Part shown: positions 14,842 to 23,465 of the stretch, piece by piece
Layout: every line of letters begins with the position of its first letter
Position numbering within the stretch: the first letter of the stretch is position 1
Assembly (NCBI GenBank): GCA_020851035.1
Contig: JADZDM010000024.1
Coordinates: 62,001-126,000, forward strand
Length of the DNA: 64,000 nt
Source: Gemmatimonadaceae bacterium
GTDB taxonomy: Bacteria > Gemmatimonadota > Gemmatimonadetes > Gemmatimonadales > Gemmatimonadaceae
Direction of reading: 5' to 3'
Made by a program: the position numbers and the translations under genes
The notes under the pieces: generated by a model
Told to the model about the DNA's origin: nothing
Seen by the model: only the letters and a program-made list of their open reading frames with translations
Database searches by the model: none

Positions 14842-15588
14842 GGGTGTGAGGCGATGGTGTAGGTGAGGATTGCCCCTACGATACTCCCTGAACGCCGGCA
14901 CTGCTGGGGTGGCTGTGCCGCGCCCGTCTCCGCGGGCGTTGTGAGCGAGTCCGGTGGTCGCTGCGGTGGCTGGCTCGCTGGTTCCCACGGAGCCACGGAG
15001 CACACGGAGTCCACGGAGGACAGCAACGGATGATGGAACTGCGTGCCCGACGCAAGCTCCGCCACGCGCACGCAGTTCCCCAATGCTCTTCTCCGTGACC
15101 TCCGTGCACTCCGTGGCTCCGTGGGAACAGGAAACCCACCACAGCACCGACCCGTCGAGACACCGCAGGAGAGGCGTGCGCCGTATGGCCTCGCAAGTCC
15201 ATCGTGGACCCGCCGCGACACCACACGCACTCCGCGCACCGCAGCTCATCCGTGAGCGCGACCAGATGCAGAAGCGACCTGAGCACCCCCGAGCCGAACA
15301 CGCCCCGCCCTTGACCGCGCCTGCCGCCGCGCGATGTTCTCAGGTGTGATATCGCACCGTACCACACGCGGTGTCACGACAAGTCGTACACGAGTCCGGT
15401 CCACCCTGGCACCTCGCGTCCCGCGTGCACTCCCCCGCGGACGGCGACGATGACAGGGGTGCGCCGAGCGATGCGCGTCGCACGTGCGGGCAGGTCCACG
15501 CACGCACGCCGGTGCGCTGGCACGCTTCCACGCACGACATCGCGTCCGTCACGGACGCCATGTGTCACGCCTCGGGAGAACCATACCC
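14842..15588. other. 747-bp intergenic gap with a repeat, no gene
   Basis: Lies between the divergent DUF305 and TonB-receptor genes. It contains the 148-bp nested palindrome at 14981-15128. The rest (15130-15588) has several short overlapping reading frames on both strands, none with a recognisable domain or a convincing RBS; the Arg/His-rich translations look like GC-rich noise. The final bases carry GGGAGAA, the RBS of the receptor gene. Promoters for both flanking genes must be here. Confidence 0.6.
14981..15128. repeat. dispersed nested palindrome, copy 3
   Basis: A 148-bp imperfect palindrome with the same CCACGGAG-type arms as the copy at 2843: left arm 14981-15020 beginning GTTCCCACGGAGCCACGG, right arm ending at 15128. 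The inner perfect 11-bp pair is GGAACTGCGTG (15035-15045) and CACGCAGTTCC (15069-15079). Arms agree at roughly nine bases in ten. Confidence 0.85.
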
Positions 15589-20253: not shown

Positions 20254-20455
20254 CGTCCTGAGCGCGCGGGAAGGTGTGACGCGGTGAGGTGACCGGCGGC
20301 GAGCGAGCGCAGGCATTCCGCACACCGCCCGTGTTGTGGGTGCAGAGATCCGGTCGGCATCATGCCGTCGTAGCCCGATAGCGAGGCGTCCGTTGCACGG
20401 GAGTGACCGTGACTGGGCGCCTGCCTGCGCGAGCCGCCGTCGCTCGCTCGCGCCA

Positions 20456-20479
20456 GCTGTCGGAGGGCCCTTCGACAGC
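20456..20479. promoter_or_regulatory. 24-bp palindrome upstream of the PEP-CTERM gene
   Basis: A 24-bp near-perfect palindrome with arms GCTGTCG / CGACAGC around AGGGCCCT; only one base pair breaks the symmetry and it would be a G-U pair in RNA. It ends 20 bases before the start codon at 20499, so it could be an operator or a leader hairpin that hides the ribosome-binding site. Confidence 0.45.
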
Positions 20480-20498
20480 CACCCACAATTCGCCGGGC

Positions 20499-21194
20499 AT
20501 GCCAATGTCTCATCCGTACCGGAACGCCACGCGTCTCGTTGCCGTGGCCGCCATCGCGCTCGCAGGCGTCGCGGCCACCGCTGCTCCTGCGTCCGCGCAG
20601 GCCACTGTCGTCACCTTCAACAGCCTGACCGAGAGTTCGCCCGGTTCGGGCACGCGCTTCGTTGGCAACTGTCATCTCGAGAGCGGCTTCCTGTTCACGG
20701 CGGTGGGCATTCCGTGCACCGGCGCCGCGGCCGCCAATGCGTTCGTGGCGGGCAGCGCCAGCAGCCCCGTCTTCGGTGGCGGCAGCACGCCATCGCTCCT
20801 CCTCAACGCGGCTGCGGCCACCACCATCGACATCCGTCGGCAGGACGGCGCCACGTTCGACTTCACGTCGATCCTGCTCGCGCCGTTCGATGGCGCGGCG
20901 ACGAGCGTGACGTTCAACGGGTTCCGCGCCGGCGGCGACGTGTCGCGGTCGGTCACGCTGGCGGGCAGCCAGGCCGGCTTCGCCATGTTCTCCTTCGCCG
21001 ACCTCTTCATCGGCGTCACCGGGGTGCAGATCGTCGCCACCAACGAGTTCGGCGAGTCGCTGGTCAAGTTCGACGACTTCAGCGCGGGGGTCCCGGATGT
21101 CGGCGTGGTGCCGGAGCCGTCGACGGTCCTGCTGCTCGGATCCGGGCTCTGCATCATGCTGGTTGTGGGCCGCCGCTGGGGGACTCGCGCATGA
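20499..21194 (+). CDS. PEP-CTERM sorting-domain protein
   Basis: A 231-aa exported protein. A signal peptide covers about residues 1-35 (VAAIALAGVAATAAPASAQA). The body is beta-rich with Ser/Thr/Gly/Ala and no catalytic motif. The last 25 residues are a textbook PEP-CTERM anchor: VPEPSTVLLLGSGL, a hydrophobic helix, then a basic tail GRRWGTRA. PEP-CTERM proteins are handled by exosortase and usually end up on the surface or in the extracellular matrix; no exosortase gene lies in this window. The stop codon overlaps the start of the next gene by 4 bases (ATGA). The ATG at 20505 is an alternative start. Confidence 0.85.
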   Translation: MPMSHPYRNATRLVAVAAIALAGVAATAAPASAQATVVTFNSLTESSPGSGTRFVGNCHLESGFLFTAVGIPCTGAAAANAFVAGSASSPVFGGGSTPSLLLNAAAATTIDIRRQDGATFDFTSILLAPFDGAATSVTFNGFRAGGDVSRSVTLAGSQAGFAMFSFADLFIGVTGVQIVATNEFGESLVKFDDFSAGVPDVGVVPEPSTVLLLGSGLCIMLVVGRRWGTRA

Positions 21195-21901
21195 GCCAGT
21201 CAACTGATACGTCCCGGGCTGTGTCCGCCGTCGTGGCGGATCGCCGCGAATTCCTCCGGCGCGCCGGACTCGCCGGTGCTGCCCTCGCGCTGGTGGGCTG
21301 TGGTGCCGGTGCCCCGGAGCTGCTCGCCCCCTCCAGCGGGCCGCGGGGCGCCGTCGTCGGGGCCGGTGGTGCGATCACGCTCGACTTCTCGCAGGACATC
21401 GACGTGCTGAACTACGCCTATGCGCTCGAGCAGCTCGAGGCGGCTTTCTATATCGGCGTGGTGACCAACGGGGCGTTCGCCTCGGTGTTCACGGCGGCCG
21501 AACGACGCGTGCTCACGGACATCCGCGACCACGAGGTGGCCCATCGTGACTTCTTCGCCGCGGCGCTCGGGTCGGCCCGGATCCCGGACCTCACACCGAA
21601 GTTCGGCGCGATCGACTTCGCGGACCGCACCAGCGTGCTGCAGACGGCGCGCACCTTCGAGGACCTCGGCGTGAGCGCGTACAACGGCGCGGCCCGGTTC
21701 ATCGCCAGCGAGGCGTACCTCGGTGTGGCCGGCAAGATCGTCTCGGTGGAGGCGCGTCACGCATCGGCGATCCGGGACATGCTCAGCCCGCGCAGCGCCG
21801 CCTTTGCACCGGACGCGTTCGACGCCGGCAGCACCCCGCAGGACGTGCTCACCGCCGCCGGTCCGTTCATCACGGAAAGCATCACCGTCGTCAACGCCTA
21901 G
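21191..21901 (+). CDS. Tat-exported ferritin-like domain protein 1
   Basis: A 236-aa protein. The N-terminus has a twin-arginine motif (DRREFLRRAGLAG) leading to a hydrophobic stretch and a lipobox (ALVGC), so it is probably Tat-exported and lipid-anchored. A ferritin-like four-helix region follows: ALEQLEAAFYIGV, TDIRDHEVAHRDFF with its Glu/His ligands, FEDLGVSAYNGAA and SVEARHASAIRDM. This matches the ferritin-like domain family found near oxidative-stress or metal genes in many bacteria. It is translationally coupled to the PEP-CTERM gene and is followed 12 bases later by a paralogue. Enzymatic activity is unknown; a di-metal site is plausible from the E...DHE.H / E..H pattern. Confidence 0.85.
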   Translation: MSQSTDTSRAVSAVVADRREFLRRAGLAGAALALVGCGAGAPELLAPSSGPRGAVVGAGGAITLDFSQDIDVLNYAYALEQLEAAFYIGVVTNGAFASVFTAAERRVLTDIRDHEVAHRDFFAAALGSARIPDLTPKFGAIDFADRTSVLQTARTFEDLGVSAYNGAARFIASEAYLGVAGKIVSVEARHASAIRDMLSPRSAAFAPDAFDAGSTPQDVLTAAGPFITESITVVNA

Positions 21902-21913
21902 GAGCCACACGAC

Positions 21914-22756
21914 ATGACCAACGATTCCACCACAGCAGCCATGCCCGGCGCCCTGGATCCTGACATCGCAGCCACGCTCGTCTCCCGGCGCGACGCGATT
22001 GCGAAGGGAGCCACCACCTCGGGCACCGTGCTGGCCGGCCTGCGCATGGGCACCATCCCGATGGCGCTCGCAGCCCTCTCCACGGCGGCCTACGGTCAGG
22101 GGCGCGCCTTGCCGACCGCCGTGCTGGGGGTGCTCAACTTCGCCCTTCGGCTCGAATACCTCGAGTCGGAGTTCTACAACCGCGGTGTGGCTGCCGCGGG
22201 GCTGATCCCCGCTGCCGATCGCACGATCTTCACGACCATCCAGTCGCACGAGGCCGTGCACGTGGACTACCTGAAGACGCTGCTGGGCAGCTCGGCACGG
22301 CCGAAGCCCACCTTCGACTTCACGGCCGGCAACGGCAGCGGCAGCGGGCCGTTCGCGGATGTCTTCACGAACTACGCCACCTTCCTGGCCGTCGCCCAGG
22401 CGTTCGAGGACACGGGTGTGCGTGCGTACAAGGGACAGGCGGCGACGCTCGCCCCGTACAAGGATGTGCTGCAGGCCGCACTGAGCGTCCACTCCGTCGA
22501 GGCGCGTCACGCGGCGGAAGTCCGGCGCCTGCGCGGCAACTTCCAGGACAACGAGCCCAATCAGGGGTGGATCTCGGGGGCGATGACCGACGTTGCCGCG
22601 ATCGCGCCGGTCTACGCCGGCGAGGCCAACACGACGCACCTCGGCCTGGATGTCACGACCATCACGGGTGTGTCGGCTGGGGCCGTCACGGAAGCGTTCG
22701 ACGAGCCGCTCACCATGGCACAGGTGCTGGCCATCGTGGACCCGTTCATCGCCTGA
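21914..22756 (+). CDS. ferritin-like domain protein 2
   Basis: A 280-aa paralogue of the preceding protein. It has an N-terminal SRRDAIAKGATTSGTV segment with a twin-arginine start and a weak hydrophobic stretch. The four-helix region contains NFALRLEYLESEFYNRG, TIQSHEAVHVDYLKTLL, QAFEDTGVRAYKG and SVHSVEARHAAEVRRL, i.e. the same E / HE..H / ED / E..H ligand set. The insert of about 15 Gly/Ser-rich residues between helices 2 and 3 is not found in the first copy. The two genes are separated by 12 bases, so the PEP-CTERM and both ferritin-like genes form one operon, ended by the repeat tract that follows. Confidence 0.85.
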   Translation: MTNDSTTAAMPGALDPDIAATLVSRRDAIAKGATTSGTVLAGLRMGTIPMALAALSTAAYGQGRALPTAVLGVLNFALRLEYLESEFYNRGVAAAGLIPAADRTIFTTIQSHEAVHVDYLKTLLGSSARPKPTFDFTAGNGSGSGPFADVFTNYATFLAVAQAFEDTGVRAYKGQAATLAPYKDVLQAALSVHSVEARHAAEVRRLRGNFQDNEPNQGWISGAMTDVAAIAPVYAGEANTTHLGLDVTTITGVSAGAVTEAFDEPLTMAQVLAIVDPFIA

Positions 22757-22784
22757 CCGGGCTCGGCGACCGAAACCCGGTGAA

Positions 22785-22950
22785 TTGAGTGCACTGTCAC
22801 CGGATTTCGAGTTGAGTGCAGTGTCACCGGATTTCGATTTGAGTGCACTGTCACCGGATTTCTGAGTGCACTGTCACTGATTTTCCTGAGTGCACTGTCA
22901 CCGGATTACAGATTGAGTGCACTGTCACCGAATTCCTGTCACCGAATTCC
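22785..22950 (+). repeat. 24-27-bp tandem repeat array, 6 copies
   Basis: Six head-to-tail copies of a unit with core TGAGTGCACTGTCACCGG followed by ATTTC or a variant, starting at 22786, 22813, 22840, 22863, 22887 and 22914. Spacing is 27, 27, 23, 24 and 27 bp. The array ends in two partial copies of CTGTCACCGAATTC. The tract is much more AT-rich than its surroundings. It fills the gap between convergent genes and has no gene of its own. The length variation and the small size of the gaps rule out a CRISPR. Confidence 0.85.
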
Positions 22951-22985
22951 CGGCATCGGCAACACGACCGTGTTGCCGATGCCGG
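22950..22985. terminator. perfect 16-bp hairpin between convergent genes
   Basis: CCGGCATCGGCAACAC (22950-22965) and its exact reverse complement (22970-22985) with a 4-nt GACC loop. It directly follows the tandem array and lies 12 bases from the stop of the minus-strand SET gene. Probably a bidirectional terminator, although no T-run follows. Confidence 0.65.
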
Positions 22986-22997
22986 TCGGTCCAGGCG

Positions 22998-23465
22998 TCA
23001 ACGCTTGCGCGCGAGCATGGTCCCGCGGCACGAGGCTGCGCCGCAGGAACAGGGATAGCGCCGCTTGGCGGCCGGCGTGTGGCGCGTGGGCAGGGTGAAG
23101 GCGTAGTCGTACGCCAGCTCCTCGCCGGGCACGATGTCGCGGATGGACTCGATCCAGATGCGCCCGTCGTCGATCACGGCGTCGCAGTTCGGGGCGCAGG
23201 AGTGGTTGATCCAACGGGCATCGTTGCCGTCCACGGCGGCGTCGATCACCACCGCATCGTCGATCGCGAAGAGGAAGGTGTGGTGCCGGGTGTGAGTGTC
23301 ATCGGGGTAGCGGGCCTCCGCCGCCGCGGGTGACAGGCGCTCGCCGGCGTACTCGACCAGCCGGGTGCCGGCCGGGATGTGGTGGGTGGCGAAGGCACCC
23401 AGGCCCTGGATCGGTGACTGGCGGATCTCGAAGGGCGGGGAGGCTGTGGCGTCGTAGCGCGGCAT
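22998..23465 (-). CDS. SET-domain protein (protein lysine methyltransferase-like)
   Basis: A 155-aa compact SET-domain protein. The SET motifs are: GLGAFATHHIPAGTRLVEY at about residues 21-40, RWINHSCAPNC near 85-95 (the cofactor/active-site knot), ELAYDY near 120, and a post-SET cysteine cluster, CSCGAASCRG, at 139-148. With the Cys of NHSCAPNC this can bind zinc, as in eukaryote-type SET proteins. SET proteins transfer methyl from S-adenosylmethionine to lysine side chains. The substrate here is unknown: no ribosomal-protein or histone-like gene is nearby. It is a single gene convergent with the ferritin-like operon. Confidence 0.9.
   Translation of the reverse strand: MPRYDATASPPFEIRQSPIQGLGAFATHHIPAGTRLVEYAGERLSPAAAEARYPDDTHTRHHTFLFAIDDAVVIDAAVDGNDARWINHSCAPNCDAVIDDGRIWIESIRDIVPGEELAYDYAFTLPTRHTPAAKRRYPCSCGAASCRGTMLARKR

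Follow-up and report, generated by a model that had tools for sequence, protein, structure and literature searches.

A tandem repeat array in a Gemmatimonadaceae genome is very probably a gene-less copy of a TIRtron-like element with a RAYT-family transposase

Introduction

Y1 transposase genes flanked by inverted repeats that are unrelated to the GTAG REPs have been named TIRYTs, and the corresponding elements TIRtrons (Di Nocera et al, 2013; PMC3733652). The account given there notes that the terminal inverted repeats (TIRs) are also found at sites apart from the gene, in dimers and groups, and that a genome can hold several such genes with different TIRs. It further calls TIRYTs less productive than RAYTs, and it reports a shared core, GGGGWSAS, for 'some TIRs', so this core is not strictly defining. 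Most TIRYTs were placed in TnpAY1 subclass 2.1 by Quentin et al (2018; PMC6006769), whose description of subclass 2.1 genes reports no REP-like sequences beside them. Here we analyse a repeat array of a Gemmatimonadaceae bacterium within a window of 64,000 nucleotides, the whole stretch of DNA studied, and compare it with these systems.

Results

An array of repeat units between two convergent genes

The array spans positions 22784-22949 of the window and consists of six units and one half unit at a spacing of 23-27 bp. The following features, of which the units were located in the sequence itself, make up the locus:

21914-22756, plus strand: ferritin-like gene upstream of the array (PF13668; Pfam E 5.1e-39)
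22770-22783, minus strand: decayed half unit CCGAAACCCGGTGA, facing the opposite way and forming an imperfect inverted dimer with unit 1 (DNA fold and sequence)
22784-22807, plus strand: unit 1, core GTGCACTGTCACC at 22789
22811-22834, plus strand: unit 2, core at 22816, GTGCAG variant
22838-22861, plus strand: unit 3, core at 22843
22864-22884, plus strand: unit 4, core at 22866, TGTCACT variant
22885-22908, plus strand: unit 5, core at 22890
22912-22935, plus strand: unit 6, core at 22917
22936-22949, plus strand: truncated unit that retains just its outer half, CTGTCACCGAATTC, and repeats 22922-22935 exactly (14 bp; Tandem Repeats Finder)
22950-22985, no strand assigned: perfect hairpin (inverted repeat in the sequence)
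22998-23465, minus strand: SET-domain gene, the convergent neighbour (PF00856; Pfam E 9.2e-24)

The six units described in the initial annotation were borne out by the positions of the cores, which start at steps of 27, 27, 23, 24 and 27 bp, and by Tandem Repeats Finder (22785-22934, period 27, 5.8 copies, 82% matches); the accompanying statement that every unit contains GTGCAC is true of five of the six, unit 2 being the exception. A second array detected by the same program (22922-22950, 14-bp period, 2.1 copies, 100%) corresponds to the duplicated half unit. The array is AT-rich against its background, as had been noted, with a GC fraction of 0.500 vs 0.697 across the window, and the 12-mer GTGCACTGTCAC did not occur in any of 50 first-order random windows. 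The decayed half unit at 22770-22783 had been overlooked at first reading; folded as DNA together with unit 1 (22770-22811) it gave -10.4 kcal/mol (z -4.27), a value equalled by one of 200 shuffles. A scan of the window against Rfam returned no family match, and promoter and terminator scans found nothing at the array. Elsewhere in the window, a short tandem repeat of CCACGGAG lies at 14985-15022, and positions 20403-22756 hold a gene with a C-terminal VPEPSTVLLLGSG stretch, which we take to be PEP-CTERM-like, followed by two ferritin-like frames, the second backed by Pfam and the first by likeness only.

The hairpin beside the array has arms of 17 nt (22950-22966 and 22969-22985) that lie 2 nt apart, and can equally be drawn as 16 bp with a 4-nt loop. 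It had been taken for the end of the array; the perfect inverted repeat is real, but it is separate from the array. The ferritin-like gene also occurs in two congeners, G001 and G002, with 74% protein identity over 281 and 278 residues; in both, a strong but different hairpin comes directly after the gene, and there is no array. Because the congeners' gene has a hairpin without an array, the structure at 22950-22985 is read as a 3' end structure of the flanking genes that is older than the array. It lacks a T tract and was rejected by the terminator scan, so it does not qualify as a consensus intrinsic terminator. Downstream of the ferritin-like gene the array-free congeners carry other genes, and a search of the ferritin/SET region among 59 relatives for an empty site found none collinear, the two flanking genes not being neighbours in the congeners.

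The repeat is dispersed through the genome with outward polarity

The initial annotation would have counted absence of the core elsewhere against its reading, but the core is common: the 13-mer GTGCACTGTCACC occurs exactly 146 times across the 4.97-Mb assembly, while the reversed control pattern does not occur. With up to two mismatches there are 176 units in 40 clusters of 1-11 units, and all 146 exact copies lie inside these clusters. The units share the consensus AATnnGTGCACTGTCACCGRWTTnC, with information falling to background beyond approximately 24 bp. A 14-mer extension, GTGCACTGTCACCG, has 138 copies here and, among the 59 relatives, eight in G001, one in each of five others and none in the remaining 53. 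The direct repeats are of a length seen in iterons, and the initial annotation had suggested a phage or plasmid attachment or replication region; however, copies at 40 places over many contigs, next to unrelated genes of which the four tested (ferritin-like, SET, DUF2127 and DEAD-box) are ordinary, leave that proposal unsupported and extremely improbable.

The orientation of the units follows a rule. Half of the clusters (20/40) contain units in both orientations, and in 18 of these every minus unit lies to the left of every plus unit, so that the GGTGAC ends point outward. Of the two clusters that deviate, one includes a stretch copied from neighbouring DNA (L014) and the other has a second unit group 115 bp away (L017). 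At the first of these (C2:55658-56001) the GTGCAC array adjoins a unit of a second repeat family (family 2), and the whole stretch is duplicated together with part of a gene end. Neighbouring opposite units are arranged minus-plus in 21 pairs and plus-minus in 2, and the inner gap is 14-23 bp in 15 of the 21 minus-plus pairs. Two such dimers were tested by folding and gave z scores of -7.1 and -9.0. Inverted dimers able to form a hairpin, a low-copy Y1 gene (below) and placement at gene ends recall the REP/REPIN sequences that accompany RAYTs in E. coli and Pseudomonas; unlike those, a single unit here folds no better than shuffled sequence (-0.4 kcal/mol, with 165 of 200 shuffles equally good), and no GT[AG]G foot was seen at the single unit.

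Clusters are enriched between convergent genes

Twenty-nine of the 40 clusters are intergenic, 14 between convergent, 8 between divergent and 7 between tandem genes, compared with 8, 7 and 28 gaps of these kinds in the window; the excess at convergent genes (14/29 vs 8/43, Fisher p 0.0098) rests on gene calls that came from a codon-score script of ours and not from a standard caller. The other 11 clusters overlap open frames, and the units there are read through. These in-frame clusters (L019, L022, L071, L073 and seven others) include what are presumably FdhD-like, ABC-ATPase-like and pyruvate-ferredoxin-oxidoreductase-like frames. At the repeats, the FdhD frame exceeds that of 14 of 18 relatives by 10 residues and that of the other 4 by 8; because the loop aligns poorly, we regard this excess as support and not as proof.

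This distribution bears on the proposal, made in the initial annotation, that the array is a multi-site regulator operator, for which the short regular period and the palindromic GTGCAC would be suitable. The 40 clusters lie at unrelated genes, many of them in frames or at convergent gene ends where a promoter would be unexpected, and no sigma-70-like promoter was found in 22500-23200 of the window. The operator proposal is thus without support and highly improbable. The window array probably has no dedicated function for its neighbouring genes.

Each of three Y1 transposase genes lies beside its own repeat family

The initial annotation noted the absence of a transposase nearby, and indeed the window's contig holds no Y1 gene; the genome has three, on contigs C2, C21 and C25. 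Its likening of the array to transposon ends, or a remnant of one, came close, since a Y1 (RAYT/TIRYT) element located elsewhere in the genome has this unit as its terminal inverted repeat:

C2:173084-173743, minus strand: intact HUH/Y1 RAYT gene, inside a frame of outward-facing units

Read in the sense of this gene, five minus units lie upstream and two plus units downstream. Each of the three genes adjoins a repeat of its own with GGKGAC pointing outward, namely GGTGACAGTGCAC at C2, GTTCAAGGGGACGGAGATCTTGAAC at C25 and GGGGACAGAGTC at C21, the upstream side of the C21 gene having only a variant of its repeat. The C2 repeat has 146 exact copies, the C25 repeat 148 (up to two mismatches) and the C21 repeat 13 (up to one mismatch), numbers that are probably lower bounds: two contig ends (C10:6-116 and C33:14-204) fall in family-2 arrays, and therefore the assembly probably breaks at those repeats. 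At the C25 locus (L067; 161000-166000) the Y1 gene stands beside tandem arrays of CAAGGGGACGGAGATCTTG, the repeat with 148 copies, and at the C21 locus (L068; 172500-177500) beside tandem arrays of GACTCTGTCCCC, the one with 13. Two relatives, G009 (L047) and G029 (L051), carry C25-like Y1 genes with tandem TTCAAGGGGTCAGAG(T/C)CCTTGAA, a variant of the C25 repeat; there, gene and repeat seem to diverge together.

The protein encoded on C2 contains the motifs NHVH, WQ and YVLLNP, and residues N59, H60, H62 and Y119 are invariant in all 27 aligned rows. It matches Pfam Y1_Tnp with 39.2 bits (cut-off 23), whereas against NCBIfam NF047646 (REP-associated tyrosine transposase, cut-off 80) the C2 and C21 proteins score below the threshold (70.7 and 70.8 bits) and the C25 protein above it (82.2 bits). 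When the 27-row profile was compared with the PDB, TnpAREP (4er8) ranked first (E 8.2e-10), and the same structure was the best fold match (E 2.5e-8) of a predicted model with mean pLDDT 90.3. The C-terminus is a helical tail in this model, and Pfam gave no HTH family there at E up to 1.

The congener G002 retains a fragment of the C2 gene (73 residues at 59% identity), upstream of which lies one unit-like sequence, and G001, which has the eight 14-mer copies, lacks a C2-type gene. These observations are relevant to a domesticated RAYT system, in which a Y1 protein that no longer transposes would serve the host at gene ends by way of the repeats, in DNA processing for instance. The single C2-type gene, the many repeats and their placement at convergent gene ends would agree with such a role; in the congeners, however, the gene and most of the repeats are lost or degenerate, and the scattering of the gene-repeat pair over other bacteria, described next, looks like mobility and not host service. 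We consider domestication unlikely.

The same repeat accompanies one clade of Y1 genes in other bacteria

Two cores within 8-30 bases of each other were found in 75 stretches of named genomes, which by their record titles are all Proteobacteria, mostly of alphaproteobacterial groups, except for one Kuenenia bin. Fifteen of the 75 stretches contain a Y1 gene, and each of these resembles C2 more than it does C25 or C21. A search for C2-type genes in 24 array genomes matched 20, one match being a 43-residue fragment. The gene lies beside units in 18 of these 24 genomes, all of which were chosen for holding arrays, so that the sole contrast is with the 59 relatives (one decayed fragment, L049); the six without a C2-type gene beside units may be incomplete assemblies. 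At 17 of 21 C2-type loci the closest unit is minus on the upstream side and plus on the downstream side, the failures being L154, L159, L167 and L175, and the genes at L170, L174 and L182 have no adjoining units, yet lie in array-holding genomes.

A phylogenetic tree placed 19 unit-flanked genes, C2 included, in one clade (support 89/91; 86% of bootstrap trees), and none of 500 shuffles gave a value as low; the label 'unit-flanked' denotes any unit with up to two mismatches within 600 bp, and it covers L159 and L167 with a proper unit on one side only and L154 with both kinds on both sides. The Y1 genes of relatives from the same family group with C25 and C21, apart from this clade. The tree omits L049, L171, L172 and L175-L181, which are fragments, duplicates, genes with internal stops or, in the case of L181, a distant Y1.

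The polarity rule extends to the named loci, where 35 of 81 clusters are mixed and 29 of these 35 have minus units before plus units (6 break the rule; 36 minus-plus pairs and 7 plus-minus). The gaps of the inverted pairs are bimodal: 40 of 53 measure 15-114 bp, and 13, at 700-736 bp, match the RAYT gene in length. The gaps fall into one class without and one class with room for the gene, which is the clearest indication that the arrays are versions of the element lacking the gene.

In Sphingomonas naasensis (L131), two near-identical full Y1 genes and one partial gene lie in direct repeat with units between them, and the whole element seems to have been tandemly duplicated. A search of plasmids for the element found no near copy, the best identity being 36%, and a Bradyrhizobium flank used to look for an empty site returned no orthologous flank, only scattered unit matches.

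Units within an arm resemble one another

Identity between the flanks of units is 0.586 within an arm, 0.425 between arrays and 0.442 between opposite arms of one array, and none of 200 label shuffles reached the within-array mean. Since flanks in the same arm agree more than those in other arrays or in opposite arms, the arms look as if they lengthen on their own by local tandem duplication. Half units in the genome's clusters are outer halves in 45 cases and inner halves in 2, and most lie 13-19 bp past the previous unit.

Shared flank variants within an arm and half units that are exact 14-bp duplicates are also what a minisatellite would show, in which a chance sequence expands by slippage with no mobile element involved, and slippage probably does lengthen the arms. 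Slippage cannot, however, carry a single core in either orientation to 40 different sites, and it leaves unexplained both the outward polarity and the occurrence of the same core around one transposase clade in other bacteria. As an account of the array as a whole, a minisatellite is very unlikely.

The bias towards outer halves is not obviously predicted by slippage; speculatively, it would follow if a nuclease acted on the outer half. One could go further and imagine that a subclass 2.1 HUH transposase itself builds the arrays, acting at the conserved outer half TGTCACCGGATT and repeatedly adding copies outward, so that inverted dimers would become two polar arms. The shared GGKGAC half would then serve for processing and the inner half particular to each family (GTGCAC, GATCTTGAAC or GAGTC) as an address, with gene and repeat passing together between distant bacteria. 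We offer this tentatively and think it rather doubtful.

Discussion

We consider it highly probable that the window array is a non-autonomous TIR copy of a TIRtron, a RAYT-family Y1/HUH element whose autonomous form lies on C2; we infer that it was inserted as a dimer whose left arm decayed while its right arm grew. In the proposed course of events, the autonomous element would be the C2 RAYT gene inside its outward-facing repeat frame, and the small derivative would be two inverted units around a short centre. As single-stranded DNA such a dimer can fold into one hairpin, the likely substrate that the transposase may cut and move. A dimer would have entered downstream of the ferritin-like gene, ahead of the 3' hairpin of that gene, after which the left arm would have decayed and local tandem duplication would have extended the right arm to six and a half units. 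For the window copy one arm is clear, and its suggested origin as a dimer is read from one decayed half unit in the sequence.

The array fits a new, unusually productive member of the TIRtron/TIRYT elements in TnpAY1 subclass 2.1. As in the published account of TIRtrons (PMC3733652), inverted repeats with no relation to GTAG REPs border a Y1 gene on both sides, dimers or groups of these repeats lie apart from the gene, and one genome holds several genes with different TIRs. Relative to the GGGGWSAS core given there, GGTGACAG is one base off and, in the other two families, GGGGACGG is one base off and GGGGACAG an exact match. The locus departs from that account in that two families here reach approximately 150 copies each, against elements described as 'less productive', and in its tandem arms, which are polar, face outward and carry truncated outer halves, a feature outside the TIRtron description cited. 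The protein resembles subclass 2.1 (Bertels group 1) as characterized by Quentin et al (PMC6006769) in NHVH, W[EQ], Y[IV]xLNP, a long C-terminal tail and the lack of a GTAG REP, but differs from what is reported there in that a repeat family lies at each of the three genes and the C2 protein has no Pfam HTH. IS200/IS605 elements have the HUH/Y1 fold in common with it; here, the catalytic region is of the Y---NP and not the Y---Q type, and the repeats far outnumber the genes. A literature search for the 13-mer GTGCACTGTCACC gave no relevant match and one unrelated.

The specialist interest of these findings lies in the pairing of repeat with gene and in the polar arms. One genome holds three subclass 2.1-type genes, each with its own repeat family and two of these families at approximately 150 copies, and the GTGCAC gene-repeat pair recurs in Proteobacteria. 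Such defined pairs of substrate and enzyme would allow the way in which RAYT-family proteins spread repeats to be tested in vitro.
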